From Hoeflea prorocentri (GTDB taxonomy: Bacteria > Pseudomonadota > Alphaproteobacteria > Rhizobiales > Rhizobiaceae): DNA of 64,000 nt. Position 1 is the first letter of the stretch; each line of letters opens with the position of its first letter. The stretch covers positions 744,001 to 808,000 of the forward strand of contig NZ_JAPJZI010000001.1 in NCBI RefSeq assembly GCF_027944115.1, read 5' to 3'. Below are positions 45,111 through 60,880 of this stretch, piece by piece. Made by a program: the position numbers and the translations under genes. The notes under the pieces were generated by a model. The model was given only the letters and a program-made list of their open reading frames with translations. It was not told the origin of the DNA and made no database searches.

Positions 45111-45158
45111 GGGCCTCGGGCAAGCTGGGGATAACCCAGCCCCTTCAGGAGGAAACAA

Positions 45159-46652
45159 ATGGCAGACAATATCCTGGCGATCGATCAGGGAACGACTTCA
45201 AGCCGCGCGATCGTGTTCAGCGCGGATCTCGCTATCGCAGGCGTGGCGCAGAGGGAGTTTACGCAACATTTTCCCAAGTCCGGCTGGGTTGAGCATGATC
45301 CGGAGGAGATCTGGCAAAGTGTTGAATGGTCTGTCGAACAGGCGCTTGCCGATGCAGGTGCGACGGTTCAGGACATAGCCGCCATAGGTATCTCCAATCA
45401 GCGTGAGACCGTGGTTGTCTGGGACCGGGAGAGCGGCAAGCCGGTCTTCAATGCCATTGTGTGGCAGGACCGGCGCACCGCGGATATGTGCGAACGCCTG
45501 AAGGGCGACGGGCTGGAGCCTGTTTTCTCTGAAAAGACGGGTTTGCTGCTGGACCCATATTTTTCAGGTACCAAGTTGAGCTGGCTGCTGGACAATGTCG
45601 AGGGCGTTCGAGAGCGGGCAGAGCGTGGCGAGCTTTGTTTCGGCACTGTTGACAGTTTTCTTATCTGGCGCCTGACAGGCGGCGCCCGTCACGTGACCGA
45701 TGCGACCAATGCTTCGCGAACGCTGATGTACAATATTGCCGAAAACCGTTGGGATGAGGAACTGCTCGCGCATCTTCGTATCCCGGCCTCGATGCTTCCG
45801 GATGTGTGCGATAGCGCTGATGAATTCGGCACCGTTGCGGTCGGTCCGCTTGCCGGCCTGCCGATCCTCGGTGTTGCCGGGGATCAGCAGGCAGCAACGA
45901 TCGGCAACGCCTGTTTTGAGCCCGGCATGATGAAGGTTACCTATGGAACCGGGTGCTTTTCGCTGCTCAATACCGGCAACGAGCTTGTAAAATCCAAAAA
46001 TCGGCTGCTCTCCACCATCGCCTATCGGCTGGACGGGGAGACGACCTATGCCGTCGAGGGCTCCATCTTTGTCGCGGGCGCGGGGGTTCAGTGGCTCCGG
46101 GACGGTCTTGGTATCATTGAAACCGCTCCGGACAGCGGTGAACTTGCCGCTAAGGCTGACCCTGAGCAGGCCGTCTATCTTGTGCCAGCTTTTGTGGGCC
46201 TCGGTGCACCCTATTGGGATGCGGAAGCCCGTGGCGCAATGTTCGGCCTGACACGCAGCACGGGGCCGGCGGAGATTGCCAAGGCGACGCTCGATTCGGT
46301 CTGTTTCCAGACACATGATCTTTTGACTGCCAAACGCGGCGACTGGCAGGGCGGTGGTGAAGAAACGGGGCTTCGTGTCGATGGCGGGATGGTCGCATCT
46401 GACTGGACCATGCAGCGCCTTGCCGACATTCTGAACGCTCGCGTCGACCGTCCCGTTATCCTGGAGACCACGGCGCTCGGTGCTGCATGGCTTGCCGGCC
46501 ATCGCGCCGGTGTGTGGCCGGACAGGGAGGAGTTTTCCAGGCGCTGGGCGCTGGATCGCCAGTTCACGCCGGCCATCGACGACGCTCAACGTGATGTCGA
46601 GCTTGACGGCTGGAAGGATGCCATAAGGCGAACGCTCACGTCCCCTTCTTGA
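45159..46652 (+). CDS. glpK: Glycerol kinase
   Basis: This 497-residue ASKHA-fold kinase phosphorylates glycerol to glycerol-3-phosphate. The phosphate-1 loop is [15 protein letters not shown]. Other motifs include [41 protein letters not shown] and [13 protein letters not shown] strong AGGAGG site precedes the ATG. Downstream of glpD, it forms the aerobic glycerol pathway. The glycerol facilitator and the regulator are not in this window. A promoter region and the start of the next cluster follow. Confidence 0.96.
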
Positions 46653-46800: not shown

Positions 46801-46868
46801 TTTTTAGTCAGACTAAAAATTTCTTGACTCGATGCTCTGCGCGAGTCATCGTTTTAGTAATACTAAAA
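46801..46868. promoter_or_regulatory. Twin palindromic operators around the regulator's promoter
   Basis: Two near-identical dyads occur: TTTTTAGT-CAG-ACTAAAAA at 46801-46819 and TTTTAGT-AAT-ACTAAAA at 46852-46868. Their centres are 50 bases apart. Between them a TTGACT hexamer (46824-46829) is a fair -35 candidate. The second dyad ends at the ribosome site of the XRE-cupin gene. The regulator encoded next to the sites is the obvious candidate to bind them. Spacing near five helical turns would allow two dimers on one face of the DNA. Confidence 0.7.
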
Positions 46869-46879
46869 AGGAGGCAGGA

Positions 46880-47521
46880 TTGAGCGGTCGGGAGGCAGCC
46901 AAATCTACGGATAAAAGTGAGCATGGAGCTCTTGCGGCCCGGCTTCGTGAACGTCGCCGCGAACTCGGCATGACACTCAAGGCCGTCGCCGATGCGGCAG
47001 GTCTTTCCGTTGGTTTCATATCCCAGATCGAACGCGGAATTGCAGTTCCGTCGCTGTCGTCGCTTGTTTCCGTGTCGCGCGTCCTCGGTGTCGAGGTCGC
47101 GGACTTTCTGACCGGGCAGCCAAAGCCGCAGGAATATGAAGCGCCCACGCGTCAGGCCGACAGGTTGGCCTTTGCCGTCAGTGAGAGCGCCGTCACCTAT
47201 GAGCGCATCTCTTCGTCCTTCCCCGGTCATGTCCTGCGTAGTGTGATCATCCATGAGCCACCGGGCCATCGCGGTGAACCTATCGCTCATGAAGGCGAGG
47301 AGCTCATGTTTGTGCTGGCCGGAGCCGTGACGATTGAAGTCGATGGGGAACGCACAATACTGGGAACGGGCGATTCCATGCATTTTCCGTCAACACGGGT
47401 TCACTCGACCTGGAACCATTCCGACACACCGGCGACGATCCTTTGGGCGGGGACGATGGATGTGTTCGGCGAAGACCCCGTTACACCCTTCCACAAGGAC
47501 AAGAAACAGAAGGCGGATTGA
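46880..47521 (+). CDS. XRE family regulator with C-terminal cupin
   Basis: The best start is the TTG at 46880, five bases after a perfect AAGGAGG; this gives 213 residues. The ATG at 46832 would lie inside the promoter and operator region. The helix-turn-helix spans LRERRRELGMTLKAVADAAGLSVGFISQIERG, and the effector-binding cupin is EGEELMFVLAGAVTIEVDGE ... GDSMHFPSTRVHSTWNH. Regulators of this PuuR/SutR-like type sense a small molecule in the cupin. It precedes the dipeptide-type transporter and hydantoinase genes and probably controls them. Confidence 0.88.
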   Translation: MSGREAAKSTDKSEHGALAARLRERRRELGMTLKAVADAAGLSVGFISQIERGIAVPSLSSLVSVSRVLGVEVADFLTGQPKPQEYEAPTRQADRLAFAVSESAVTYERISSSFPGHVLRSVIIHEPPGHRGEPIAHEGEELMFVLAGAVTIEVDGERTILGTGDSMHFPSTRVHSTWNHSDTPATILWAGTMDVFGEDPVTPFHKDKKQKAD

Positions 47522-47564
47522 CCGCCCGCATCAACTACAATCCAACCGCGCAGGGAGAACACAA

Positions 47565-49169
47565 ATGAACTATCTTGCAAAATCAGCAGCAGCGGCGCTC
47601 TTGAGCGTCAGCACGCTTGCTCTGGTACCCTCAGTGCCGGCGCTGGCGGAAACAGTGCTGCGTCTCGACGAGGTCGCCGTCGGCGAACTCGATCCGGCAA
47701 AGGCGTCCGACTACGCCGACTCAATCCTCATGTTCAACGTCTACGACACGCTGGTGCTTCCGGCGCAGGGCGCGCCCGGTCTGGTGCCGCATCTGGCTGA
47801 AAGCTGGTCGGCCGACGGCAACAATCACACATTCAAGCTGCGAAAGGATGTCAAATTCCAGAGCGGCAATCCACTGACGGCGGATGATGTGGTCTTTTCG
47901 CTTGAGCGGATGCAGGCGCTTGGTGCTGGCCTTTCCTATCTGTTTGCCAATGTGGAGAAGGCGGAGGTAGTCGACGACAATACGGTGACCTTCGTTCTGA
48001 AGGAGCCCTATGCGCCCTTCGTTGCATCCATGCTGCGTCTTCCGATTGTCGACAAGAAGCTTGTCATGGAAAATCTCGGGGACGGCGAAGGCGAGATGAA
48101 GGACTGGGGTCAGGCTTTCCTTTCGGCGAATGGCGCAGGAACCGGCGCCTATAAGGTTACCGCCCATAATCCGCAGCAGGAAACGGTCATGGCGAAAAAT
48201 GCCGACTATTTCCTCGGCGTCCCGGGTGTTGCGCCCGACACGGTGCGGGTTCGTTACGGGCTTGAACCTGCGACCGTCCGTACGTTGATTGCGCAAGGCG
48301 AGCACGACATCTCATCGCAATGGCTGCCGCCGGAAGTTCTGAAGGCTTTGGCACAGGACGGCGCGCAATTGCTGACCGAGTCCGGTACCGGTGGGTTCTA
48401 CGTCAAAATGAACACCACCAAGGCACCGTTTGACGATCCGGAATGCCGCTTGGCGGTTGCCAATGCCTTCGACTATGGCGCGGCCATCAAGATGATCGCC
48501 GTGACGGATGACGTGTCGCAGGGCAGCCCGGCAACCGGCGCGATCCCGGTCGGGATGCTGGGTTCCAATCCGCCTTCCGACGCGCTTGCGAAGGACATGG
48601 ACGCAGCAAAACGCCACTGGGATTCCTGCCGTTATGCGCCAGGCGATCATACGATCGAGATTTCCTGGATTGCCGAGGTGCCGCTTGAGGAGCGTTTCGC
48701 ACTGTTGATGCAGGCGAATTTCGCCGAGCTCGGCGTCAAATCTGAAATCAAGAAACTGCCCTGGGCGCTGTTTGCCGAGCAAGTTTCAAAGCCTGAAAAC
48801 ACGCCGCATATCTCGCAGCTCTTCGTCAATGCCGTTACCGGCGATCCTGATACGCTGCTTTACGGTATGTATGATTCCAAGGCAGCCGGCACCTGGCAGT
48901 CACCGGAGTATCTCAACGATACCGAGGTGGATGAGTTGCTTGAGAAGGGCAGGACCAACTCCGATCCGGCAGCCCGGGCCGAGGCCTATCATGAGCTCAA
49001 CAAGAGGCTAATGGCGATCGCACCGACGATCTACGGCTACGACCGGCAATCGGTCTTTGCAGCAAGCGACCGGGTCAAAGTGCCCGCGCTGTCCGATCCG
49101 TCAAAGGCCTTCGGGCTTGACGGCATGGGCTTCAGCTTCCGGCTGATGGAAATGCAAGACAAGAACTAG
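47565..49169 (+). CDS. ABC transporter substrate-binding protein, dipeptide/oligopeptide type (family 5)
   Basis: The start at 47565 follows a CAGGGAG site and gives 534 residues with a Sec signal peptide (cut after SVPALA). Family-5 hallmarks are LVPHLAESWSADGNNHTFKLRKDVKFQSGNPLTADDVVFSLER and ITSSQWLPPE-like and NTTKAPFDDPECRLAVANAFD segments. Proteins of this group bind peptides, nickel or sugars, and the ligand here is unknown. The next genes are two permeases and two ATPases, so a full importer exists. A terminator-like hairpin follows, which should make the binding protein more abundant than the membrane parts. Confidence 0.9.
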   Translation: MNYLAKSAAAALLSVSTLALVPSVPALAETVLRLDEVAVGELDPAKASDYADSILMFNVYDTLVLPAQGAPGLVPHLAESWSADGNNHTFKLRKDVKFQSGNPLTADDVVFSLERMQALGAGLSYLFANVEKAEVVDDNTVTFVLKEPYAPFVASMLRLPIVDKKLVMENLGDGEGEMKDWGQAFLSANGAGTGAYKVTAHNPQQETVMAKNADYFLGVPGVAPDTVRVRYGLEPATVRTLIAQGEHDISSQWLPPEVLKALAQDGAQLLTESGTGGFYVKMNTTKAPFDDPECRLAVANAFDYGAAIKMIAVTDDVSQGSPATGAIPVGMLGSNPPSDALAKDMDAAKRHWDSCRYAPGDHTIEISWIAEVPLEERFALLMQANFAELGVKSEIKKLPWALFAEQVSKPENTPHISQLFVNAVTGDPDTLLYGMYDSKAAGTWQSPEYLNDTEVDELLEKGRTNSDPAARAEAYHELNKRLMAIAPTIYGYDRQSVFAASDRVKVPALSDPSKAFGLDGMGFSFRLMEMQDKN

Positions 49170-49179
49170 CCCTGCGCCT

Positions 49180-49212
49180 CGGGCCGGTTGCTTCGGCGCC
49201 GGCCCGTTTTTT
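49180..49212 (+). terminator. Rho-independent type terminator/attenuator between binding protein and permease genes
   Basis: A perfect eight-base stem, CGGGCCGG with CCGGCCCG, has an 11-base loop (49188-49198) and is followed at once by six T bases. It lies directly after the binding-protein stop. Such partial terminators set the binding protein to a high level relative to downstream transporter genes. Confidence 0.8.
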
Positions 49213-49250
49213 AACGCGAGCCTCCGGCTCGAAGAAGGCTGCATCATCGC

Positions 49251-50282
49251 ATGTCACCCCTGGTTCGCCTCCTTTTGAAGCGGCTGTCGATCTCGGTCAT
49301 CGTTCTGATCGGTGTATCGATGCTGATCTTCACCATCGCCCGCGTGATTCCGGGCGATCCGGCCCGTATTGCGCTCGGGCCGAACGCGACGACCGAACAG
49401 GTGGAGCAGCTTCGCGACAAATTGCATCTGAACGAGCCGATCTACGTTCAATACGGCTATTTCGTTCGTGATTTTGCACGCGGCGACCTCGGTGTTTCGC
49501 TTTACACGAACCGCCCGGTCATGACCGATATTGCTCAGTTCCTGCCGGCGACGCTCGAACTCGTGATCGTCGCCGGCATTTTCATGATCGGCCTCGGTAT
49601 TCCGCTCGGCATTGCCTCGGCGCGTTATCGCGGCAAGACGGCCGACAATATTATCCGTGTCATATCGTTGCTCGGCGTTTCGGCCCCCAGCTTTGTGTGG
49701 GCCGTTATTCTAATGCTGCTCTTTGCATTCTTCCTGCCGCTCTTTCCCATCGCCGGGCAGATTTCCGACACGCTTACCGTACCGCCGAGGATCACCGGCT
49801 TTCTCCTGGTGGACAGCCTGATCACTGGTCACTTTGCAGCCTTCTTCAGCGCGCTCCATCACATCATCCTGCCGGCCTTTGCGCTTGCACTTTCCGGGAT
49901 CGGTCAGGCCGCCAGGCTGACGCGCTCCAATATGGTCGAGACCTATGACAAGCCTTATATCGAAATGGCACGGTCCTATGGGTTTCCAGCGCGGCGGATT
50001 GCCAACCGTTACGCCTTCCGGCCCTCGCTGATCCCGTCTTTGACAATCATTGGTCTCGATTTTGCCGCCATGTTGGGCAACGCCTTTCTGGTGGAGGCGG
50101 TCTATGGCTGGCCGGGCCTGTCGCGCTATGGCGTTCAGGTGATCCTGCGCAAGGATCTCAATGCCATTGTCGGAACCGTGCTGGTCATCTCCGCGACCTT
50201 CCTGATCGTCAATATCATTGTGGATCTGCTGATCGCCTATATCAATCCGCGCATCCGGCTGGCGGAAAGGAGCGGCTCATGA
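49251..50282 (+). CDS. Dipeptide-type ABC transporter permease (DppB-like)
   Basis: This 343-residue permease opens with RLLLKRLSISVIVLIGVSML and the family block RVIPGDPARIALGPNATTEQVEQL. It then has LGVSLYTNRPV and the EAA docking loop IEMARSYGFPARRIANRYAFRPSL. Six membrane segments are expected. The start ATG is 38 bases after the T tract of the terminator. It overlaps the next permease by four bases. It should form the channel with the DppC-like protein. Confidence 0.92.
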   Translation: MSPLVRLLLKRLSISVIVLIGVSMLIFTIARVIPGDPARIALGPNATTEQVEQLRDKLHLNEPIYVQYGYFVRDFARGDLGVSLYTNRPVMTDIAQFLPATLELVIVAGIFMIGLGIPLGIASARYRGKTADNIIRVISLLGVSAPSFVWAVILMLLFAFFLPLFPIAGQISDTLTVPPRITGFLLVDSLITGHFAAFFSALHHIILPAFALALSGIGQAARLTRSNMVETYDKPYIEMARSYGFPARRIANRYAFRPSLIPSLTIIGLDFAAMLGNAFLVEAVYGWPGLSRYGVQVILRKDLNAIVGTVLVISATFLIVNIIVDLLIAYINPRIRLAERSGS

Positions 50283-51112
50283 GGCGTACGCTCTATATTC
50301 TCTTATCCAATCCGCTCTCCGCGATCGGCCTGTTTCTTGTCACCACGGTTGTCTTTGCCGCCGTCTTTGCCGATTTTATCGCGCCGTTCCCCTCCCATCG
50401 CGGCGCCGTGGTGGATTTTTCAAACTTCAACCAGCCGCCGCACTGGCCGAATATTTTCGGCACCGATCTCGTAGGCCGCGATGTTTTCTCGCGCATTCTT
50501 TATGCCTACCGCATTTCACTGATGCTGGGCGTGGTGGTTCTGGCGATTGCTGTGCCGATCGGTGTCACGGTCGGGCTTGCCGCCGGCTATCTCGGCGGCT
50601 GGGCGGAGTTTGTCCTTATGCGGCTGACGGATGTTTTCCTGTCGATCCCGCCCCTGGTGCTCGCCATGTCAGTGATGGGGCTTCTGGAGCCGACACTGAC
50701 AAACGGCATGCTAGCGGTCACAACCATGTGGTGGCCCTGGTATGCGCGGCTTGTCTACAACGTCACCCGCTCCGAGGCACAGGAAGGCTACGTGCTTGCC
50801 GCGGAGATCATCGGCGCGTCCCGCTTGCACATCATGTTCCGGGAAATCCTGCCCAATTGCGTGCCGTCCATCGTCACCAAAATGACGCTGGATCTCGGTT
50901 TCGTCATTCTTATCGCATCCTCGCTGTCGTTTCTTGGTCTTGGCGTGCAAGCCCCGACGCCTGATCTCGGATCCATGGTCGCCGAGGGCGGTAATTATCT
51001 GCCGGATTCCTGGTGGCTGACAGTGTTTCCATCGCTCGCCATTCTCATTGCCGTTTTCGGCTTCAATCTCTTGGGCGATGCGTTGCGGCAAGTTCTGGGG
51101 AGCGATCAATGA
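50279..51112 (+). CDS. Dipeptide-type ABC transporter permease (DppC-like)
   Basis: This 277-residue permease carries the DppC/OppC N-terminal pattern (FADFIAPFPSHRGAVVDFSNFNQPPHWPNIFGTDLVGRDVFSRILY) with a GTD-x-GRDVFSR signature. The EAA loop is AAEIIGASRLHIMFREILPN, and the closing block SSLSFLGLGVQAPTPDLGSMV is typical. Both ends overlap neighbours by four bases, with the DppB-like gene before and the first ATPase after. It gives the second half of the channel. Confidence 0.92.
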   Translation: MRRTLYILLSNPLSAIGLFLVTTVVFAAVFADFIAPFPSHRGAVVDFSNFNQPPHWPNIFGTDLVGRDVFSRILYAYRISLMLGVVVLAIAVPIGVTVGLAAGYLGGWAEFVLMRLTDVFLSIPPLVLAMSVMGLLEPTLTNGMLAVTTMWWPWYARLVYNVTRSEAQEGYVLAAEIIGASRLHIMFREILPNCVPSIVTKMTLDLGFVILIASSLSFLGLGVQAPTPDLGSMVAEGGNYLPDSWWLTVFPSLAILIAVFGFNLLGDALRQVLGSDQ

Positions 51113-51987
51113 GTGATGCACTGCTCGACATTCGTGATCTTCGGCTTGCGTTCAAGGGATATTCGGGTCTGACCGAAGTGCTGCATGGCATTTCACTCAA
51201 GGTGGGCGCGGGTGAAAAGGTTGCCCTGGTCGGCGAATCCGGCTCAGGCAAGTCCGTGACCGCGCGGATCATACTGGGCCTGCTGCAGGAACTGCGCTCG
51301 GCCAAGGTTTCTGGGTCTGTCTTTTTTGACGGGCAGGACCTGGAGAAACAGCCACTGAAGGTGCGCCAGGGTTTGCGCGGTACCAGCATGTCGATGATCT
51401 TTCAGGATCCGACCTCTTCTCTTAATCCGGTTTATCCGATCGACGTTCAGTTCATCGAGGTGCTGAGGCGCGGATCAACGGGCATCGCGGAAGCCGACGC
51501 GCGTTTGCGGGCCGTGTCGCTGCTGACAGATGTTTCCATACCGGAGCCCGAACGGGTGCTTGCATCCTATCCGTTCCAGCTTTCCGGCGGCATGAACCAG
51601 CGGGTGATGATCGCCATGGCGCTTGCCAATGAGCCGTCGCTTCTGATTGCCGATGAGCCGGGGACGGCGCTGGATGTCACCGTGCAGGCCCAGACCCTTC
51701 ATCTGATGCGCGATCTTGTCGAGCGGCGCGGAACGTCGGTGCTTTTCATCTCGCACAATCTGGGTGTGGTGCGCGAGTTCGCGGACCGGGTCTATGTGAT
51801 CTACAAGGGCCGGCTCGTCGAACATGGTGAGACCTACGAGCTGTTTCATAATCCCCGTCACCCCTACACAAAGGCACTGATGGCCGCCGTTCCGCGCATC
51901 ACAGGTGGCGGTATTCCGGAAATCGACGAAGCTATGGACGGGTTTCATGATGCGATGATCGATCATGAGGCGGGGGTTTCGCGATGA
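51109..51987 (+). CDS. Dipeptide-type ABC transporter ATPase (DppD-like)
   Basis: The start at 51109 lies in an ATGA overlap with the permease gene and gives 292 residues. Walker A is [11 protein letters not shown]. The signature motif reads [15 protein letters not shown] and Walker B is [18 protein letters not shown]. The H-loop is [13 protein letters not shown]. The C-terminal [21 protein letters not shown] is the OppD/DppD extension, though the iron-sulfur cysteine cluster found in some family members is not visible. It pairs with the DppF-like ATPase to power uptake. Confidence 0.92.
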
Positions 51988-52814
51988 GCTTGACCACGTC
52001 CACTCACGACACCGTGCTGGAGGCGAAGGGTGTCTCCAAGGTCTTCATGACCTCAACGCATGAGGTAAAGGCACTTGATTCGGTGTCTTTGACTGTGATG
52101 CGTGGTGAGTGCCTGGCGATCGTCGGTGAGAGCGGTTCGGGCAAGACCACATTCGCCAACATGCTGCTTGGCATCTATCCGCCAAGTGCCGGGGAGCTGC
52201 TGTTGGACGGCGCACCCCTGCCGACACGGCGTACCTTGCCGCTGCGGCGCGCCATTCAGCTTGTCCAGCAAAACCCGCTGTCATCGCTCAATCCGCGCCG
52301 CACCGTCGGTGCCTCGCTGCGGCTGGCGCTCGACGTTCACGATATCGGTGACCGGCCGGGCCGGGCGGGGCGGGTTGGTGCCCTTCTTGAAGAGGTGGGG
52401 CTGCCTTCCGAATTCGCGCAGCGATATCCCTCGGCGCTTTCCGGCGGCCAGCGCCAGCGTGTGGCCATTGCACGTGCGCTGGCATGCGGGCCGGAAATCC
52501 TGGTTCTGGACGAGCCGACTTCGGCGCTTGATGTGCTGGTTCAGGCGCGCGTCCTCAAGCTACTTGATGAACTGCGGCGTCAGCGAACCCTGACCTACGT
52601 TTTCATCACGCACGACCTTGGCGTGGTGCGCAATATTGCTGACCGGGTCGCCGTGTTCGAGCGCGGCAAACTGGTAGAGCAGGCCGAGACCGAAGAAATC
52701 TTCGAGCGGCCCCAAAACGCCTATACACGAAGCCTGATCGGGGCGATCCCGGTTATCACCGACGAAGAATTGGATCTTCGCCGGAAAGTCATGGAGGAAA
52801 ACGGTGTCGGCTGA
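51984..52814 (+). CDS. Dipeptide-type ABC transporter ATPase (DppF-like)
   Basis: This 276-residue ATPase starts in a four-base overlap with the previous gene. Walker A is [17 protein letters not shown]. The Q-loop is LVQQNPLSSLNPRRTV, the signature LSGGQRQRVAIARALA, Walker B ILVLDEPTSALDVLVQ, and the H-loop VFITHDLGVVRNI. The C terminus (IFERPQNAYTRSLIGAIP) is the usual DppF ending. It completes the five-gene importer. Its stop overlaps the GTG of the GAF gene by 11 bases. Confidence 0.92.
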   Translation: MSLTTSTHDTVLEAKGVSKVFMTSTHEVKALDSVSLTVMRGECLAIVGESGSGKTTFANMLLGIYPPSAGELLLDGAPLPTRRTLPLRRAIQLVQQNPLSSLNPRRTVGASLRLALDVHDIGDRPGRAGRVGALLEEVGLPSEFAQRYPSALSGGQRQRVAIARALACGPEILVLDEPTSALDVLVQARVLKLLDELRRQRTLTYVFITHDLGVVRNIADRVAVFERGKLVEQAETEEIFERPQNAYTRSLIGAIPVITDEELDLRRKVMEENGVG

Positions 52815-53304
52815 AGACATGATTATCGAGTTTACGGAGGCGGCTGGCAACGCGACAGATGTTTCGGAGGTCCAAAAGGCACTTGAGGAGCTGACGCAGG
52901 CGCGCATCGGCGTGAAGCTGTTCACGCTGATGACGTTCGACCGCGAATCCCGCCTTGCGCGGCGCAGCTACACCAATATGCCCGATGCCTATCCCAGTTC
53001 CGGAACCAAGCCGGTGGGCAGCGATCACTGGACTTCGCATGTCCTGGATGGGCGTAACTCATTCGTCGCAAACGATATTGAAAGCATTGCGGCGGTTTTC
53101 GACGATCATGAACTGATCCAATCGCTTGGATGCGAGTCGGTTCTCAACGTGCCGATCGTGGTCGGTGGGGAAGTCCTCGGAACGATCAATTGCCTGCATG
53201 AGGCAGGCTTTTATACGCCGGACAAGGTCGCTGCGGCAGAGATTCTAAAACTGCCGGGAAGCGTTTGTTTTCTCATGGAAAAATTGAGCAAGGGAGGCCA
53301 GTGA
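52804..53304 (+). CDS. GAF domain protein
   Basis: This 166-residue cytoplasmic protein starts at a GTG inside the end of the DppF-like gene. It is a single GAF-type alpha/beta domain, seen in SDHWTSHVLDGRNSFVANDIESIAAVF and LGCESVLNVPIVVGGEVLGTINCLHEAGFYTPD. No output domain is attached. The pattern of Cys residues does not match the free-methionine-sulfoxide-reductase GAF proteins. GAF-only genes in catabolic operons may bind the substrate or a metabolite. The TGA stop overlaps the hyuA ATG by one base, so the two are translationally coupled. Confidence 0.75.
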   Translation: MSAEDMIIEFTEAAGNATDVSEVQKALEELTQARIGVKLFTLMTFDRESRLARRSYTNMPDAYPSSGTKPVGSDHWTSHVLDGRNSFVANDIESIAAVFDDHELIQSLGCESVLNVPIVVGGEVLGTINCLHEAGFYTPDKVAAAEILKLPGSVCFLMEKLSKGGQ

Positions 53305-55376
53305 TGGCGAACTCCACAATTCGTGTCGCAACCGATGTCGGGGGTACGTTCACCGATCTGGTCTGTTTTGAAACCGATGAGAACGGCGCCTCCAGCATCC
53401 GTACTGCAAAGTCGGATACGACGCCGCCGGATTTTGAGAAGGGCGTCCTGAACGTTCTTGAAAAGGGCGGTGTCGATCCCGGAACGGTCGACTTTCTGGC
53501 GCATGGCACCACCGTTGTCATCAACGCTTTGACGGAGCGCAAGGGCGTCAAGGTCGGGCTCATCACCACAACAGGTTTTCGCGACATTCTTGAGATTGCC
53601 CGCGGTAACCGTCCCGACTTCTTCAATCTGCATTATAAAAAACCGCCACCCTTTGTGCCCCGTTATCTGCGTCGGGAGCTTCCGGGACGCATGAGCTACC
53701 GGGGCGAGGAGCTGCAACCGCTTGAGATGTCGGGCCTGCCTGCAATCCTCGACGGGTTCCGGGAAGAGGGTGTCGAGGCGGTCGCCATCTGTTTCCTTCA
53801 TTCTTATGCCAACCCCAAGCACGAACAGGCCGTTCTCGCTGAAGTGGGCAGGCTCTGGCCGGACGTCTCGGTTGTTTCATCGCACCAGATTACCCGCGAA
53901 TGGCGCGAATATGAGCGCACGAATACAGCGGTCCTGTCTGCCTATGTCCAGCCCATTGCGGAGCGTTATCTTTCAAGGCTGAGCGAAGGGCTGGCGAGCC
54001 GCGATTTCAAGGGCAGTCCCTATATCATGCAGTCCAATTGCGGTGTGGATTCCCTGGAGTCGGTGTCACGCATCCCCATCACAATGGTTGAATCGGGACC
54101 GGCATCCGGCTTCTGGGGCGCAGCGGAACTCGGCAAGCTCATCGATGAGCCCAACATCCTTGCGCTCGATATTGGCGGCACGACGGCCAAATGCTCGCTG
54201 ATCGAGAATGGCCAGGTCCGCATCATGACGGATTACTGGATCGAGAAGGACCGCACCTCGGCGGGATACCCGATCATGGTGCCCGTGGTTGACCTCGTGG
54301 AGATCGGCAATGGCGGCGGCTCCATCGCCTGGGTCGACGATTTCAAGAAGCTGCATGTGGGCCCCCAATCGGCCGGCGCTCTGCCGGGGCCTGCCGCCTA
54401 TGGCAAGGGCGGCACCGACGCGACCACCACGGACGCCAATCTTTATCTCGGGCGCATCAACAAGGACTATTTCTGCGGCGGCGAGATCGATGCGGACATG
54501 AATGCTGCCAATTCCGCGATTGAAACGGTCGCCGGCAAGCTTGGTGTGAACGCAAAAGAGGCGGCGCGTGGCATTGTGCGGATCGCCAACAACAACATGG
54601 TCAACGCGCTCAAGCTGGTGTCGCTGAACCGGGGTTTCGACCCGCGCGATTTCACACTTGTGGCCTTTGGCGGTGGCGGCGCCATGCATGCCGTGGCGCT
54701 GGCCGCCGAACTTGGCGTGAAGAAAGTGGTCGTCCCGGCAGGTGCGTCGGTGTTCTCGGCCTGGGGCATGATGATGTCTGATCTCAGGCGGGACTATTTT
54801 GTCACGCGTCTGGTCGATCTTTCCGAAGGCGGAGCAAGGGAGATCGAAGCGCTCTTTGCCGAGACGGAGGAGCAGGCGCGGGCGCAGTTCGCGCAGGAGG
54901 GCATTGACGGTGCGCGTGTATCATTCCTGCGTTTCGGCAAGTTCCGCTATCAGAATCAGGAGCACACGACCGAGGTGCTTGTGCCGGAAGGCGAGATTAC
55001 CGGTGAGCGCCTTGCCGAGATCGAGGCGCTTTTCCACGAGACCTATGAGCGCGAATACACCTACCGTCTGGACGCTCCGGTCGAGATGGTCGGCATCCAT
55101 CTGGTTGCCTCGGCCGAAGTCGGCAAGCTGACGATGAAAGAGCAGCCAATGGGCGATGCGGATGCGAGCCCTGCGATCAAGGGCAGGCGGAGCGTGGACT
55201 ACGCGCTCGACGGTGAGCATGAGAGCATGATCTTTGACGGGCTGGCTCTCAAGCCCGGCATGGCATTCGACGGACCGGCTATTGTTGAGGACCCCGGGAC
55301 CACGGTGGTCATCCACCCCGGCAGCAGCGCCCGGATCGATGCCTATGGCAATATTCATATCGAACTCGGCGCATAG
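53304..55376 (+). CDS. hyuA: Hydantoinase/oxoprolinase subunit A
   Basis: This 690-residue protein starts at the ATG at 53304 (GGGAGG site). The N-terminal domain shows the family opening VATDVGGTFTDLVCF. The catalytic block has DFLAHGTTVVINALTERKG, and the ATPase region contains ILALDIGGTTAKCSLI with the ASKHA-type phosphate loop. The C-terminal part matches the N-methylhydantoinase A and acetone carboxylase beta families. ATP-dependent ring opening of an imide or lactam (hydantoin or 5-oxoproline) is the characterised reaction. It needs a B subunit, of which two are encoded downstream. The true substrate is not known. Confidence 0.88.
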   Translation: MANSTIRVATDVGGTFTDLVCFETDENGASSIRTAKSDTTPPDFEKGVLNVLEKGGVDPGTVDFLAHGTTVVINALTERKGVKVGLITTTGFRDILEIARGNRPDFFNLHYKKPPPFVPRYLRRELPGRMSYRGEELQPLEMSGLPAILDGFREEGVEAVAICFLHSYANPKHEQAVLAEVGRLWPDVSVVSSHQITREWREYERTNTAVLSAYVQPIAERYLSRLSEGLASRDFKGSPYIMQSNCGVDSLESVSRIPITMVESGPASGFWGAAELGKLIDEPNILALDIGGTTAKCSLIENGQVRIMTDYWIEKDRTSAGYPIMVPVVDLVEIGNGGGSIAWVDDFKKLHVGPQSAGALPGPAAYGKGGTDATTTDANLYLGRINKDYFCGGEIDADMNAANSAIETVAGKLGVNAKEAARGIVRIANNNMVNALKLVSLNRGFDPRDFTLVAFGGGGAMHAVALAAELGVKKVVVPAGASVFSAWGMMMSDLRRDYFVTRLVDLSEGGAREIEALFAETEEQARAQFAQEGIDGARVSFLRFGKFRYQNQEHTTEVLVPEGEITGERLAEIEALFHETYEREYTYRLDAPVEMVGIHLVASAEVGKLTMKEQPMGDADASPAIKGRRSVDYALDGEHESMIFDGLALKPGMAFDGPAIVEDPGTTVVIHPGSSARIDAYGNIHIELGA

Positions 55377-55386
55377 GGAGGCGGTT

Positions 55387-57045
55387 ATGAGCAGCAACGA
55401 TCCGATCACGCTGGAAATCATCCAGAACTCGCTCCAGGCGACCGCCGATGAGATGTTCGCCGCCATGCGCAAGACGGCGATGAGTTCGATCATCTATGAG
55501 GTGCTCGATATGGGTACCGGCATTATGGACGCCAAGGGACAACTGGCGTCATCGGGCGCGGGCATTCCAGCCTTTATCGGTGTGCTCGACAAGGCGGTGC
55601 AGGTGATCATCGAGAAATTCGACAAGCCGGGCGATATTCAGCCCGGGGACGTCTTTACGACGAACGATCCCTATTATGGCGGCGTTACCCATCTGAACGA
55701 TATCGTCGTCGCAATGCCGGTCTTTGCCGACGGGCGCATCATCGCCTGGACCGCCAATATCGCGCACAACTCCGATGTCGGCGGCATGGCGCCGGGGTCG
55801 CTTTCGGGCGAGGCGACGGAAATTTTCCAGGAAGGTCTCCGGCTGCCGGCGGTCAAGATCATCTCAAAGGGCGAGCCGATCCGACCGGTGATGGACATCA
55901 TCAAGGTCAATTCCCGCATGCCCGACGTTCTGGAGGGCGATGTCTGGGCGGCTATTGCTTCGGTGAGAGTCGGGGACAAGCGGCTTGTAGAGCTGGCGGA
56001 AAAATACGGAACCGAGACCTTTGAACGGGCGATGTCGTCTTTCATGGACTTTGGCGAGGAGGTCTCGCGCAAGGCGCTTGCCGATCTGCCGCAAGGCACG
56101 TTTGAACTCTCCGAAGAGCAGGATGACGGGCGGATTTTCAATGTGAAGATCACCATCGGAGCGAACGAGTTCACCGTTGACCTGACGGATAATCCGGACC
56201 AGTCTGACAATCCGGTCAACACCAGCCGCGACGGAGTCATGGTCTGTGCGCAGATGATCTTCAAATCGCTGACCGATCCCTATTCACCGGCCAATGGCGG
56301 CTCGTTCCGCCCGATCAATCTACTGACCCGCGAAGGCTCGGTCTTTCACGCAAAGGAGCCGGCGCCGATCGGTTTCTATTACGAAATCGAGCTTCGGGTT
56401 TACGATCTGATGTGGCGCTGCCTTGCGCCGCATATGCCGGAACGTCTGGCCGCAGGCCATTTTGCCTCCGTCTGCGGTACATTTATCGGCGGTATCCATC
56501 CCGATACCGGGCGGCAGTATACGATCATCGAACCGCAGCTCGGCGGCTGGGGCGCGAGCCGTGATGGCGATGGAAACAGCGCTGTTTTCTGCGGTTTTCA
56601 TGGCGAGACCTACAATTGTCCGGCGGAGATTAACGAGGCGCGCAACGGGCTTTATGTCGACCGTCTGGAGCTCAACATGGAACCCGGCGGAGAGGGTCGC
56701 TTCACAGGTGGGCGTGGCATTGTCATGGACTACCGCGTGCGGGCCGACAACGGCTTTCTGACAGCCGGTTATACGCGCTCGAAGTTCCCTGCCTGGTCCA
56801 TCGATGGCGGGCGGGAAGGGTCTCCCAACTATGTGGAATTCCGGCCCAAGGAGGGAGAAACCGAGCGCTATGCATTTGTTTCCGGTCTTGCCACCAAAAA
56901 GGACGATGTCATTCGCGTGGTGACCGGAAACGGCGCCGGGCTGGGCGATCCGAAGGAACGCGATCCCGATGCGGTGCGCCGCGATGTGAAAAACGAACTC
57001 ATCAGCCCTGAGCGGGCCGAAGAGATTTATGGCGTGAAAAGCTGA
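55387..57045 (+). CDS. hyuB: Hydantoinase/oxoprolinase subunit B, first copy
   Basis: From the ATG at 55387 the product has 552 residues. The N terminus matches the family as ITLEIIQNSLQATADEMFAAMRKTAMSSIIYEVLDMGTG. Other hallmarks are GDVFTTNDPYYGGVTHLND, ANIAHNSDVGGMAPGS, RDGVMVCAQMIF and the C-terminal glycine-rich TGNGAGLGDPKERDP. Together with HyuA it should form the ATP-dependent amidohydrolase. It lies 10 bases after hyuA. A hairpin-rich intercistronic segment separates it from the peptidase gene. Confidence 0.88.
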   Translation: MSSNDPITLEIIQNSLQATADEMFAAMRKTAMSSIIYEVLDMGTGIMDAKGQLASSGAGIPAFIGVLDKAVQVIIEKFDKPGDIQPGDVFTTNDPYYGGVTHLNDIVVAMPVFADGRIIAWTANIAHNSDVGGMAPGSLSGEATEIFQEGLRLPAVKIISKGEPIRPVMDIIKVNSRMPDVLEGDVWAAIASVRVGDKRLVELAEKYGTETFERAMSSFMDFGEEVSRKALADLPQGTFELSEEQDDGRIFNVKITIGANEFTVDLTDNPDQSDNPVNTSRDGVMVCAQMIFKSLTDPYSPANGGSFRPINLLTREGSVFHAKEPAPIGFYYEIELRVYDLMWRCLAPHMPERLAAGHFASVCGTFIGGIHPDTGRQYTIIEPQLGGWGASRDGDGNSAVFCGFHGETYNCPAEINEARNGLYVDRLELNMEPGGEGRFTGGRGIVMDYRVRADNGFLTAGYTRSKFPAWSIDGGREGSPNYVEFRPKEGETERYAFVSGLATKKDDVIRVVTGNGAGLGDPKERDPDAVRRDVKNELISPERAEEIYGVKS

Positions 57046-57058
57046 CATGACCGGGAGG

Positions 57059-57090
57059 CAGCCGCACCACATTCATATGCGGCTGTGGTG
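57059..57090 (+). promoter_or_regulatory. Mutually exclusive hairpins between hyuB and the peptidase gene
   Basis: Two perfect stems share bases. CAGCCGCA (57059-57066) pairs with TGCGGCTG (57078-57085), or CACCACA (57065-57071) pairs with TGTGGTG (57084-57090). No T tract follows, so this is not a standard terminator. Alternating RNA folds just upstream of the next ribosome site could adjust expression or mRNA stability. The function is inferred only. Confidence 0.45.
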
Positions 57091-57120
57091 ATGGCGGACC
57101 TGAATTTTAAAGAGGATATG

Positions 57121-58221
57121 ATGACCAATACGATTGCAGACAAGATCAATGCGTTGCGCAGCCGCATGGCGGAGGAGAGTGTCGATCTGATTGCCATTGG
57201 CCCGGGCGCGCACATGAAATGGCTGCTCGGATTTTACCCGCATCCGGATGAGCGTCCGTGCCTGTTGTTCGTTAGCCGAACGGCTGAGACCTTTTTGATG
57301 CCGGCGATGAATGCCGAGGGGACCCGGCAGGAGACCGATATCGGCTTTCATACCTGGGACGATGCGGACGGCCCCGACGCGGCCTTGAAAGCCGCGCTCA
57401 GCGAGATTGGGGCAGAGGGTGCGCGCAACGTTGTTGTCGATGAGGCCATGCGTGCCGATTTTGCCTTGCTTGTGCTGGATGCCTTACCCGGAGCCGTCCA
57501 CAGTTTCACCGGCGCAACTTTGGGCGCGCTCAGAATGCGCAAGGGTGACGATGAATATCGCGAACTGAAAAAGAACGCGCTTTTGGCCGACGAAGCCATG
57601 AAAGCGGCCTTTGCTGCCGCGCGTCCCGGCATGAGTGAAATTGAACTCGCGGATGTTATTTCGCAGAGCTTTATCGCCAATGGCGCGCGCCCCTTATTCC
57701 GCATTGTCGGGACAGGCGGGAATGGTGCGTTTCCGCATCACCACACCGGAGAAACGGTCATTCAGGCCGGCGATGTGATTGTCATCGATATCGGGGCGCA
57801 GGCCGGCAACTATCCGTCCGACATCACCCGTTCCGTTGTCGTGGGCGATGCGCCGGACGACTATGACAAAGTGCACGCGATCGTCGACAGTGCGGTCAAA
57901 GCGGCCATGGGTGCGGCGAAACCCGGTGTCAAAGCCCGGGATGTCGATGCGGCGGCGCGCAAGGTCATTGCCGATGCAGGCTACGGGGAATATTTCGTAC
58001 ACCGCACTGGTCACGGCATGGGCATTGAAGTGCATGAGCCGCCTTACATCACATCGACATCGGATACTGTCCTTGAAGAGGGCATGGTGTTTTCCATCGA
58101 GCCAGGCATCTATCTACCGGGTCGGTTCGGCATCCGGCTGGAGGACATCGTGATCCTTCGTGCCGATGGCCCCGAAATCCTCTCAGAATTGCCGCGCGAT
58201 GCGCACAAAGTGAGCGTATAG
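57121..58221 (+). CDS. M24 family metallopeptidase (Xaa-Pro dipeptidase-like)
   Basis: I choose the ATG at 57121 (AGAGG five bases before), giving 366 residues. An N-terminal creatinase-N-like domain (about residues 1-130) precedes the pita-bread catalytic domain. All five metal ligands are visible: Asp in VIVIDIGAQ, Asp in SDITRS, His in HRTGHGMGIEVHEPP, Glu in SIEPGIYLP and Glu in IRLEDIV. Their presence rules out creatinase, which lost them. This suggests cleavage of a dipeptide with proline-like or blocked ends. It sits between two hyuB genes, so it may release or process the HyuAB substrate or product. Confidence 0.88.
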   Translation: MTNTIADKINALRSRMAEESVDLIAIGPGAHMKWLLGFYPHPDERPCLLFVSRTAETFLMPAMNAEGTRQETDIGFHTWDDADGPDAALKAALSEIGAEGARNVVVDEAMRADFALLVLDALPGAVHSFTGATLGALRMRKGDDEYRELKKNALLADEAMKAAFAAARPGMSEIELADVISQSFIANGARPLFRIVGTGGNGAFPHHHTGETVIQAGDVIVIDIGAQAGNYPSDITRSVVVGDAPDDYDKVHAIVDSAVKAAMGAAKPGVKARDVDAAARKVIADAGYGEYFVHRTGHGMGIEVHEPPYITSTSDTVLEEGMVFSIEPGIYLPGRFGIRLEDIVILRADGPEILSELPRDAHKVSV

Positions 58222-58224
58222 GCG

Positions 58225-59796
58225 ATGGCTCCGGCACCGGGGGAAGACCCGTTCACCACGGCCGTTATCCAGGCGAGCCTCGTTGCAGCGGCCGATGAGA
58301 TGTTCGCCGTGCTGCGCAAGACGGCGATGAGCCCGATCATTTACGAGGTTTTGGATGTCGGCACGGGCATAACGGATGGCGAAGGCAATCTTGTCAGTTC
58401 CGGAGCAGGAATTCCGACCTTTGTCGGCGTGCTGGACAAGGCCGTGCGGCGCATTCTGGAACTGCACGGCATGGAGGCGATACGGCCGGGTGATCTGTTC
58501 ATCACCAACGATCCCTACTATGGCGGCGTGACGCACCTTAACGACGTTGTGCTGGCGCTGCCGGTCTTTGCCGAGGGCAGACTCATCGCCTGGTGCGCCA
58601 CGATTGCCCATTGGAACGATATTGGCGGACGGGTGGCCGGGTCAATGTCGACCGAGGCAACGGAGATATTCCAGGAAGGTTTGAGGTTGCCAGCGGTCCG
58701 GCTTTTCGAGGCCGGCGAAAAAGTCGGGTCGGTCTTCGATATCATTGCTGCCAATTCTCGGTTGCCGGATTTTGCGAATGGCGATTTGTGGGCGCAGGTC
58801 GCCGCTTGCCGCATCGCCGAGCGGCGCATTGCCCAACTGACGCAAGCGCATGGCATCGAGGCCTTTGACGCCGCGCTCGTTTCGCTGTTCGAAGGGGGGG
58901 AAAAGAGAGGTCTTGCCGGGCTTCGAGACCTGCCGCAGGGGACCTACGAGATCCAAGAGGAGCAGGATGACGGTGCGCTGTGGCGCGCCGCGATCACCAT
59001 CGCAAGCGACCGGTTCACCGTTGATTTGCGCGGCAATCCGTCGATGCGTGATGCGCCCTATAACACCAGCCGGGACGGGGCTGTGATCTCGGCGCAGATG
59101 ATCTTCAAGGCGCTGACCGATCCGTCGCTCTTTGCCAATGCCGGTTCCTTCCGGCCTCTGCAAGTCATAACGGAGCCGGGCACTGTCTTCCATGCAACCG
59201 GAAACACGCCACACGGCTATTATTTTGAAACCCGCATTCGTCTTTACGACATGCTGTGGCAATGTCTGGCGCGTGCCATGCCGGAGCGCTTGCCGGCGGG
59301 GCACTTTGCTTCCATCTGCGGCACGGTTTTGGCCGGCGAACATCCCGATACCGGTCGCAGATACACAATGGTCGAGCCGCAAATGGGCGGTTGGGGCGCG
59401 ACCTCCAGCCGCGACGGGCTCGACGCGATGTATTCATGCAGTCATGGTGAGACTTACAATTGTCCGGTCGAAGTCGCCGAGGCGCGCTACGGTCTGGGTG
59501 TCGACTACAAGAGGCTCAGCGACGGCGATGAAGGGCAGGGCCGCTTCATTGGCGGAAAAGGGCTCTCTGTCTGTTACAGCCTGCGCGGCGAGGCGCTGCT
59601 TTCGGCCGGCTACAGCAGAAACAGAATTCCAGTCTGGGGGCTGGCGGGCGGCCAAACGGGTGGAACCAACGGCTTTGCCATAATGCGTGGTGACAGAACG
59701 CGCGAGCCGCGGGCGTTTGCCAGCGGCGTTGAGCTGAAATCGGGCGACAGGATTGAGATCGACACCGCCAATGGCGGAGGTTGGGGTGAGCGCTGA
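58225..59796 (+). CDS. hyuB: Hydantoinase/oxoprolinase subunit B, second copy
   Basis: This 523-residue protein is clearly a paralogue of the upstream HyuB. Both share the DEMFAVLRKTAMSPIIYEV type opening, SSGAGIPTFVGVLDKAV, TNDPYYGGVTHLND and the RDG-x-x-SAQMIFKALTDPS block. They differ throughout at other positions and in loop lengths. It starts three bases after the peptidase stop. No second hyuA is present nearby, so it may share the single HyuA or act with a subunit elsewhere. The duplication may be old, since identity looks moderate. Confidence 0.86.
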   Translation: MAPAPGEDPFTTAVIQASLVAAADEMFAVLRKTAMSPIIYEVLDVGTGITDGEGNLVSSGAGIPTFVGVLDKAVRRILELHGMEAIRPGDLFITNDPYYGGVTHLNDVVLALPVFAEGRLIAWCATIAHWNDIGGRVAGSMSTEATEIFQEGLRLPAVRLFEAGEKVGSVFDIIAANSRLPDFANGDLWAQVAACRIAERRIAQLTQAHGIEAFDAALVSLFEGGEKRGLAGLRDLPQGTYEIQEEQDDGALWRAAITIASDRFTVDLRGNPSMRDAPYNTSRDGAVISAQMIFKALTDPSLFANAGSFRPLQVITEPGTVFHATGNTPHGYYFETRIRLYDMLWQCLARAMPERLPAGHFASICGTVLAGEHPDTGRRYTMVEPQMGGWGATSSRDGLDAMYSCSHGETYNCPVEVAEARYGLGVDYKRLSDGDEGQGRFIGGKGLSVCYSLRGEALLSAGYSRNRIPVWGLAGGQTGGTNGFAIMRGDRTREPRAFASGVELKSGDRIEIDTANGGGWGER

Positions 59797-59896: not shown

Positions 59897-60877
59897 ATGA
59901 AAAGACTGATCCTTACATCCATTGCCGCTATGGCGCTGGCTGGCCAGGCCCTGGCTGCCGATGTCTCCGGCAAGCTGGTGCTCTACACATCGCAGCCGAA
60001 CAAGGATGCGCAGGCAACCGTCGATGCCTTCAAGGCAAAATATCCCGATGTCGAGGTCGAGTGGATCCGGGACGGGACAACCAAGGTGATGGCCAAGCTG
60101 CGTGCGGAGTTCGAGGCCGGCGCGCCGCAGCCCGACGTGTTGCTGATTGCTGACATGGTGACGATGGAGGGCCTGAAAGCCGAAGGTCGGTTGATGGCCT
60201 ATGAGGGCGCCGATATCACCGCCTACGATCCGGCGATCATGGACAAGGATAAAACCTATTTCTCAACCAAGCTGATCACCTCCGGCATTATGTACAACAC
60301 CAATGCCCCGATGAAACCGACATCTTACAGCGATCTTCTGAAACCGGATGCAAAGGACAAACTGGCCATGCCGTCGCCGCTGACCTCGGGTGCGGCAACG
60401 ATCCACATGGCAGCGCTGACAGGCAATCCGGAGCTGGGCTGGGATTATTATGAAGGTCTCGCTGAACAGGGCGCCAACCCCAAGGGGGGCAATGGCGGAA
60501 CCTACAAGGCCATTGCCGGCGGTGAGAAGCTCTATGGCTTCGTCGTCGATTTCCTGCCGATCCGAAACAAGCTTGAGGGCGCGCCGGTCGAGTTTGTCTT
60601 TCCGGCCGAAGGCGTTTCCGCCGTGACCGAGCCCGTCGCCATCCTATCGACGGCGAAGAACCCCGATGCTGCCAAGGCTTTTGTCGATTTCCTGATTTCG
60701 GAAGACGGTCAGAAGCTCGCCGCCGGCCAGGGTTATCTTGCCGCACACCCCGCGATCGATCCTCCCAAGGGATTTCCGCCGCGCGATCAGATCAAGCTCA
60801 TGCCTTTCGATCCTGCCGCGGCGCTTGCGGACGACAAGGAAAACAAGATGAAGTTTACGGAAATTTTTGGCGGCTGA
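59897..60877 (+). CDS. ABC transporter substrate-binding protein, AfuA/FbpA-like
   Basis: The start at 59897 (AGGTG site) gives 326 residues with a Sec signal peptide (MKRLILTSIAAMALAGQALA). The mature opening ADVSGKLVLYTSQPNKDAQATVD is typical of the family 1 group for iron(III), 2-aminoethylphosphonate or sugar phosphates. Fe(III)-type tyrosine pairs near the C terminus are not evident, so iron is not assured. There is no proof of a link to the upstream Hyu genes, since 100 bases separate them. The permease gene follows three bases later. Confidence 0.86.
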   Translation: MKRLILTSIAAMALAGQALAADVSGKLVLYTSQPNKDAQATVDAFKAKYPDVEVEWIRDGTTKVMAKLRAEFEAGAPQPDVLLIADMVTMEGLKAEGRLMAYEGADITAYDPAIMDKDKTYFSTKLITSGIMYNTNAPMKPTSYSDLLKPDAKDKLAMPSPLTSGAATIHMAALTGNPELGWDYYEGLAEQGANPKGGNGGTYKAIAGGEKLYGFVVDFLPIRNKLEGAPVEFVFPAEGVSAVTEPVAILSTAKNPDAAKAFVDFLISEDGQKLAAGQGYLAAHPAIDPPKGFPPRDQIKLMPFDPAAALADDKENKMKFTEIFGG

Positions 60878-60880
60878 TAT

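Follow-up and report, generated by a model that had tools for sequence, protein, structure and literature searches.

The described systems closest to the locus reported here are ATP-dependent ring-opening enzymes and ring epimerases. Caprolactamase CapAB of Pseudomonas jessenii opens its ring with two subunits, one carrying the phosphate motifs of HyuA and the other the Asp-His-Asp-His metal site of HyuB, for which the CapB ligands are D41, H99, D102 and H124 (PMC8453981); N-methylhydantoinase (PDB 7hk5) is a single fused chain of 1288 residues. The epimerases OpaE and NozR act in biosynthesis, OpaE turning D-Phe into L-Phe within the ring of a cyclic anthranilyl tripeptide (PMC7530659; PMC12661438) and NozR, of the same subfamily, isomerising the diketopiperazine cyclo-Trp-Trp (PMC10156859). 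Here we describe a cluster of eleven genes, all on the + strand at positions 46832-59796 of a 64,000-nucleotide stretch of Hoeflea prorocentri DNA (contig NZ_JAPJZI010000001.1, 744,001 to 808,000; hereafter the window), in which one HyuA stands with two HyuB subunits (HyuB1 and HyuB2), an M24 metallopeptidase and a dipeptide-type importer. This gene set, listed in an initial annotation made from the letters alone, was recovered with named Pfam and NCBIfam families from open reading frames (ORFs) and their starts. We infer from gene association that these genes form an operon for the breakdown of cyclic dipeptides (2,5-diketopiperazines), those with proline probably among them, and put the probability of this at roughly 0.55.

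We searched one genome per species for relatives of HyuB2. Of the 86 that matched, 80, from 79 distinct loci, were kept; these loci (at least 79) lie mostly in the Rhizobiaceae and their kin and in the Rhodobacterales. Partners were counted in the 64 loci whose sequence extends 9 kb or more upstream of hyuB2. The hyuA gene is present in all 64, the permease gene PermC in 62, hyuB1 and the GAF gene in 60 each, the M24 gene in 57 and an Asp/Glu-type racemase gene (PF01177) in 45, usually between hyuB1 and the M24 gene; rarer partners are a relative of zinc-dependent dehydrogenases (9) and a proline-racemase relative (5, two weak, 28-42% identity). Four of the 64 are without a full hyuB1: L088, L091 and L092 show a piece of it on the other strand, cut by the locus edge, and L098 is the sole one without any. 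When seven gene families were tallied, the exact order GAF-hyuA-hyuB1-M24-hyuB2 was found in 13/79 loci and GAF-hyuA-hyuB1-racemase-M24-hyuB2, with one racemase, in 28/79, the other 38 varying or being cut by contig ends. The recurrence of these two orders argues that the cluster is not a chance association, and the gene-order comparison that the initial annotation had proposed finds importer, ring opening and M24 peptidase in one conserved unit. The same gene set is carried on a Qingshengfaniella plasmid, and a Thermus plasmid holds it rearranged, with a racemase.

Several loci depart from this plan. Bigger clusters (L072, L078, L107 and L113) have an extra long HyuA-type gene before the set and/or a further hyuA-hyuB pair after it, and at L110:12734-13819 hyuB2 is in two pieces, interrupted or misassembled. 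Four loci (L122, L124, L166 and L167) with a HyuA 69-71% identical combine a GAF protein belonging to the same family (35-44% identity) with a sugar-type importer, named as such in the records for L122 and L124 and judged by eye from ORFs for L166 and L167. On the haloarchaeal Natrononativus plasmid L244, two hyuA-hyuB pairs stand with a cupin, a racemase and a dipeptide-type importer.

We then grouped loci by HyuA identity, using for each locus a single HyuA flanked by 4 kb or more on either side, removing nine duplicate loci and counting partners within 9 kb. An M24 gene stands near 49/60 HyuAs of at least 65% identity, 3/6 at 50-64%, 0/12 at 42-49% and 1/48 below 42%; over the same four classes the racemase is near 38/60, 3/6, 1/12 and 2/48, the GAF gene near 54/60, 0/6, 0/12 and 2/48, and any of five dipeptidase types near 51/60, 4/6, 0/12 and 3/48. 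The control loci are not a random sample but those of the class that matched HyuA best, and they include seven stretches from the window's own genome. The two controls having both racemase and GAF (L266 and L267) were retrieved via the racemase itself. Without them the counts below 42% become 1/46 for M24, 0/46 for the racemase and 0/46 for GAF, with Fisher p values of 4e-18, 2e-13 and 8e-24. These exaggerate the association, given the kinship among the loci and the retrieval of most of the 60 via HyuB2.

HyuA carries the DxGGT phosphate motifs, aligned with those of CapA, and the Asp-His-Asp-His metal site is kept in HyuB1 (66/66) and in HyuB2 (76/77 for the first Asp, 77/77 for the other three), which together assign the proteins to the ATP-dependent lactamase/oxoprolinase (HyuA/HyuB) superfamily. 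The best PDB match of all three is 7hk5; unlike that fused chain, HyuA and HyuB are separate here and HyuB is doubled. The cluster also differs from CapAB in most CapB pocket residues, including Tyr136, and in its second HyuB and its peptidase. The NCBIfam caprolactamase cut-offs were missed (HyuA 520 of 1000, HyuB1 231 and HyuB2 193 of 1000).

The two HyuB are indeed different, as had been noted, being 55% identical and falling into separate clades of a 168-sequence tree, built by a brief search that used SH-aLRT as its only support measure and carried a long-branch warning: 78 HyuB2 rows, including L098, at support 99, and 75 HyuB1 rows at support 94, with the second Thermus HyuB outside both clades. 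At least 90% conservation in both HyuB was found at 186 positions, 20 of which differ between HyuB1 and HyuB2; where CapB has Tyr136, for instance, HyuB1 has Leu and HyuB2 has Met, and next to the last metal ligand HyuB1 has Asn and HyuB2 has Trp. HyuB2 is the less conserved, with 188/523 positions at least 95% conserved versus 271/552, and in four comparisons, with dS near saturation, its dN/dS was 0.065-0.136 versus 0.039-0.081 for HyuB1, higher in three of the four. Judged by these ratios, both are under purifying selection, and we rejected HyuB2 as a decaying copy on its dN/dS and its kept metal site.

Within the stretches seen, hyuA and hyuB1 occur without hyuB2 in L120 and L252, hyuA and hyuB2 without hyuB1 in L098, and in Martelella (L085 and L086) each HyuB has a separate hyuA; these arrangements argue that either HyuB can function beside a HyuA in the absence of the other. 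HyuB1 and HyuB2 thus look like alternative partners of one HyuA, and the initial annotation's proposal that HyuA pairs with either gains indirect support from the single-HyuB and two-hyuA loci. HyuB2 is not always accompanied by a separate HyuA, the pattern that would have spoken against that proposal. In the window's 5.0 Mb genome, HyuA-type matches number eight and HyuB-type matches seven. Besides the HyuA of the cluster, four with 33-37% identity each adjoin their own HyuB, and three further HyuA-like genes, at only 27-29% identity, had no HyuB seen beside them in the scan; service of HyuB2 by another HyuA of the same genome is not supported, and an outside partner is unlikely. One distant HyuA-like gene of this genome (L165) has a dipeptide-type importer and two DUF917 genes beside it.

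Metal-free M24 proteins such as creatinase and ectoine hydrolase have lost their metal ligands. In the M24 enzyme of the cluster the ligands D223, D234, H298, E327 and E341 are all kept, as in the whole alignment (69/69, the window's included), which bears out the earlier remark that five intact ligands make creatinine use unlikely; both creatinine and ectoine use were rejected on these grounds. The ligand set places the enzyme among M24 metallopeptidases of the prolidase/aminopeptidase P type. Ectoine hydrolase models of NCBIfam were not reached (78.5 of 575 and 50.8 of 613 bits). The best PDB match is 1wn1, named a dipeptidase (E 8e-62), and we predict a dipeptidase, by matches that do not separate dipeptidase from aminopeptidase P.

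Next to such HyuA-HyuB sets, dipeptidases from several families with no relation to one another appear repeatedly; in the controls they are absent or rare. The Martelella loci read M24, M17 aminopeptidase, M55 D-aminopeptidase and then the two hyuA-hyuB pairs; Devosia (L124) has a leucyl aminopeptidase (M17), a proline-racemase relative and an Ldh-family oxidoreductase; and L256 has an M19 dipeptidase immediately after hyuB. The amidohydrolases of Arthrobacter/Paenarthrobacter (L266, L267) and of L167 score best against the NCBIfam model for Xaa-Pro dipeptidase, at 229-232 of 500 bits and so below the cut-off; the best PDB matches of the L267 protein are a putative amidohydrolase and a prolidase. 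In Parageobacillus (L126) the genes are racemase, transporter, XRE, hyuA, hyuB, cupin, M24, P5C dehydrogenase and proline dehydrogenase, and proline catabolism genes also adjoin the loci of Rhodococcus L245 (HyuA 43%) and Paenarthrobacter L267 (HyuA 39%). Members of the proline-racemase family are expected to have a catalytic Cys where the neighbours in L088, L091, L092 and L124 read Met-Ser-Gly-Ser-Asn. These neighbours score below all NCBIfam cut-offs; for two of them, L088:8944-9993 and L124:11704-12738 beside hyuB, trans-3-hydroxyproline dehydratase is the best model.

The racemase of the relatives has OpaE as its best solved match (9qbx, E 2e-28). In Hoeflea poritis the gene lies at L040:8009-8836. 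We scored the racemase pocket by the OpaE-type residues given in PMC12661438, namely the Cys pair and positions 20, 25, 131 and 132. In 68 racemase rows, with one genome counted twice and some loci contributing two copies, both catalytic Cys are present in 68/68, V/I/L at position 20 in 64/68, V/I at 131 in 65/68, Gly at 132 in 65/68 and Tyr or Phe at 25 in only 31/68. By residue identity these racemases resemble OpaE at three of the four pocket positions and have most, though not all, of the OpaE-type pocket. Allantoin-hydantoin racemases are reported with Asn/Asp and Thr at these positions (PMC12661438); KpAllR has Thr at both 131 and 132, and the three alignable racemases of the window's genome read T-L, A-T and T-I there. 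The setting also differs from that of the biosynthetic OpaE and NozR, the cluster's context being uptake and peptidases. In a reverse search, the racemase was matched at E 1e-30 in 2/385 genomes spread over the class, both times inside this cluster, at the same place and with one internal stop codon; these are the two genomes that, besides the window's, have a HyuA above 70% identity. Among plasmids, 13 records have the racemase at E 1e-25, and all of those examined (9/9) have hyuA-hyuB nearby, the four remaining records being from genera already represented.

The importer is of the DppA type, with a family 5 binding protein, two permeases and two ATPases. We take R355 and D408 of DppA to be the residues holding the ends of the dipeptide; in alignments of 17 binding proteins with E. 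coli DppA, R355 falls in a gap in 17/17 and Asp is missing at 408 in 17/17. The absence of these anchors fits a ring without free ends, and is no proof of one. The XRE-cupin protein is a predicted sensor and regulator of the cluster, and the GAF protein, whose invariant residues include R54, P64, K69, D101, N115, P117 and N129, is probably a ligand sensor or accessory protein; the L267 GAF is 39% identical to it over 117 residues.

Varying dipeptidases beside a constant ring-opening enzyme, together with the OpaE-like epimerase, suggest that the substrate is a cyclic dipeptide and the product a dipeptide. The importer would take up the ring, HyuA would activate a ring amide using ATP, and HyuB1 or HyuB2 would receive the activated ring at its metal site and open it to a linear dipeptide, which the M24 enzyme would split to amino acids. 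In most relatives the OpaE-like epimerase would adjust the D/L configuration, HyuB1 and HyuB2 being alternative HyuA partners that may differ in substrate or stereochemical preference, while XRE-cupin and GAF would sense substrate or product and the genes may be co-transcribed. The initial annotation had the M24 enzyme cleave the imported compound; its place in the conserved unit stands and its place in the order is refined, the evidence fitting ring opening first and M24 action on the freed dipeptide. The substrate was earlier suggested to be peptide-like or a cyclic amide; the leading candidate can now be narrowed to cyclic dipeptides. The broader view, of a widespread dedicated diketopiperazine operon in which HyuA works with two stereochemically different HyuB and, in most relatives, a ring epimerase and a dipeptidase, is tentative and falls a little short of even odds.

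Several observations weigh against the cyclic dipeptide assignment. The window's cluster is without a racemase, none of the four PF01177 genes of its genome has the OpaE-type residues (one being unalignable at these sites), and among the relatives Tyr or Phe at OpaE position 25 is found in only 31/68 rows. Proline dehydrogenase is near 0/60 of the closest HyuA loci within 9 kb, and 9/60 (L068, L089, L094, L098, L122, L125, L166, L173 and L253) are without any of the five dipeptidase types over the same distance. The counts for M17, M19, M38, M55 and proline genes rest on few cases and include self-matches and single cases, the references for these families coming from counted loci; the loci are not independent, and retrieval via HyuB2 selects for the operon. 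The HyuA of L266 and L267 is only 38-39% identical to the window's. Finally, L122 encodes an enzyme of the hydantoinase/carbamoylase family, scoring over the cut-off of that model, which would fit hydantoins. A 5-substituted hydantoin pathway, with HyuA/HyuB opening hydantoins, a hydantoin racemase, an N-carbamoyl amino acid as product and another role for M24, would also agree with the hydantoinases after which the HyuA/HyuB families are named and with the PF01177 racemase, whose OpaE subfamily includes hydantoin racemases. We consider it improbable: the racemase pocket follows OpaE, not the hydantoin type, at three of four positions, and M20 enzymes like that of L122 are near 1/60 close HyuAs versus 51/60 for dipeptidases. 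Equally improbable is the import of linear peptides ending in a ring, from which M24 would cut first a pyroglutamyl, 5-oxoproline or other lactam unit for HyuA/HyuB to open. This is nearest to the order of events first proposed, and it suits a dipeptide-family importer and the kinship of HyuA/HyuB with caprolactamase and with a chain bearing the name 5-oxoprolinase; however, opening 5-oxoproline leaves no obvious role for an epimerase of ring-embedded hydrophobic residues, and the binding protein is without DppA's two dipeptide anchors in the alignment, which is not diagnostic.

A separate question, compatible with any substrate, is whether HyuB1 and HyuB2 act together in a mixed complex, HyuB2 being structural or sequential. 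The two co-occur in 60/64 loci, and acetophenone carboxylase, with two chains matching HyuA, offers a precedent in its alpha alpha' beta gamma core (PMC5214803). Against this stand the lone HyuB beside HyuA in L120 and L252 (HyuB1) and L098 (HyuB2), the HyuA for each HyuB in Martelella, and the retention of all four metal ligands of HyuB2 in at least 76/77 sequences, so that a mixed complex seems to us doubtful and alternative partnership with one HyuA the better account.

The features of the cluster are collected in Table 1. The four-base overlaps described earlier as predominant hold, with the starts chosen here, for PermB/PermC, PermC/AtpD and AtpD/AtpF and not for the other junctions: AtpF/GAF overlap by 11 bases and GAF/hyuA by 1, and gaps separate hyuA-hyuB1 (10 bases), hyuB1-M24 (75), M24-hyuB2 (3), XRE and the solute-binding protein (43), and the latter and PermB (81). 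A promoter scan was at chance level (5 observed versus 5.0 expected) and was not used, nor was a terminator scan (19 versus 12.6, standard deviation 3.0). Directly upstream on the same strand are two genes (43587-46652) that we take to be glpD and glpK. After the cluster comes a separate importer, binding protein plus permease (59897-62587), presumably iron-type, which adjoins the cluster also in L043, L044 and L045.

Table 1. Features of the HyuA-HyuB cluster in the window.
Feature	Position	Strand	Family or remark
XRE-cupin regulator (HTH_3 + Cupin_2)	46832..47521	+	PF01381, PF07883; true start may be further downstream
Family 5 solute-binding protein (DppA family)	47565..49169	+	PF00496
ABC permease, DppB type (PermB)	49251..50282	+	PF00528, PF19300
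ABC permease, DppC type (PermC)	50279..51112	+	ORF list and orthologs of 63-96% identity in HyuB2 loci; no Pfam scan
ABC ATPase, DppD type (AtpD)	51109..51987	+	PF00005, PF08352
ABC ATPase, DppF type (AtpF)	51984..52814	+	PF00005, PF08352
Stand-alone GAF protein, GTG start	52804..53304	+	PF13185
HyuA, ATP-binding subunit	53304..55376	+	PF05378, PF01968, PF19278
HyuB1, metal-site hydrolytic subunit	55387..57045	+	PF02538; ligands D41, H102, D105, H127
75-base gap, racemase site in most relatives, none here	57046..57120	+	
M24 metallopeptidase, predicted dipeptidase	57121..58221	+	PF00557; five metal ligands
HyuB2, second metal-site hydrolytic subunit	58225..59796	+	PF02538

Cyclic dipeptides are abundant natural products. 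The enzymes hydrolysing them were called unclear in a 2013 study (PMC3852281), and a caprolactam paper considers it possible that many genes annotated as hydantoinase or oxoprolinase in fact encode a caprolactamase or a hydrolase of cyclic dipeptides (PMC6061476). Clusters with a cyclodipeptide oxidase but no synthase gene are described as also holding PF01177 racemases, DUF917 proteins, dipeptide importers and peptidases (PMC11055893); the oxidase family PF19585 was found in 0/385 genomes of the class, with a silent control that makes this uninformative. In the open-access literature, with subscription journals and patents outside the coverage, we found no paper pairing diketopiperazine with oxoprolinase and, in the literature searched, no title or abstract describing such a gene set; nor do the accessible parts of the two works on diketopiperazine degradation that mention hydantoinase (PMC11055893, PMC3852281) describe one. 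If the assignment is true, the cluster would supply a gene set for cyclic dipeptide degradation, with enzymes to assay, and would assign a function to one set of those hydantoinase- or oxoprolinase-annotated genes. An adjacent HyuA, OpaE-like epimerase and dipeptidase would then serve as a marker for such pathways in other genomes.

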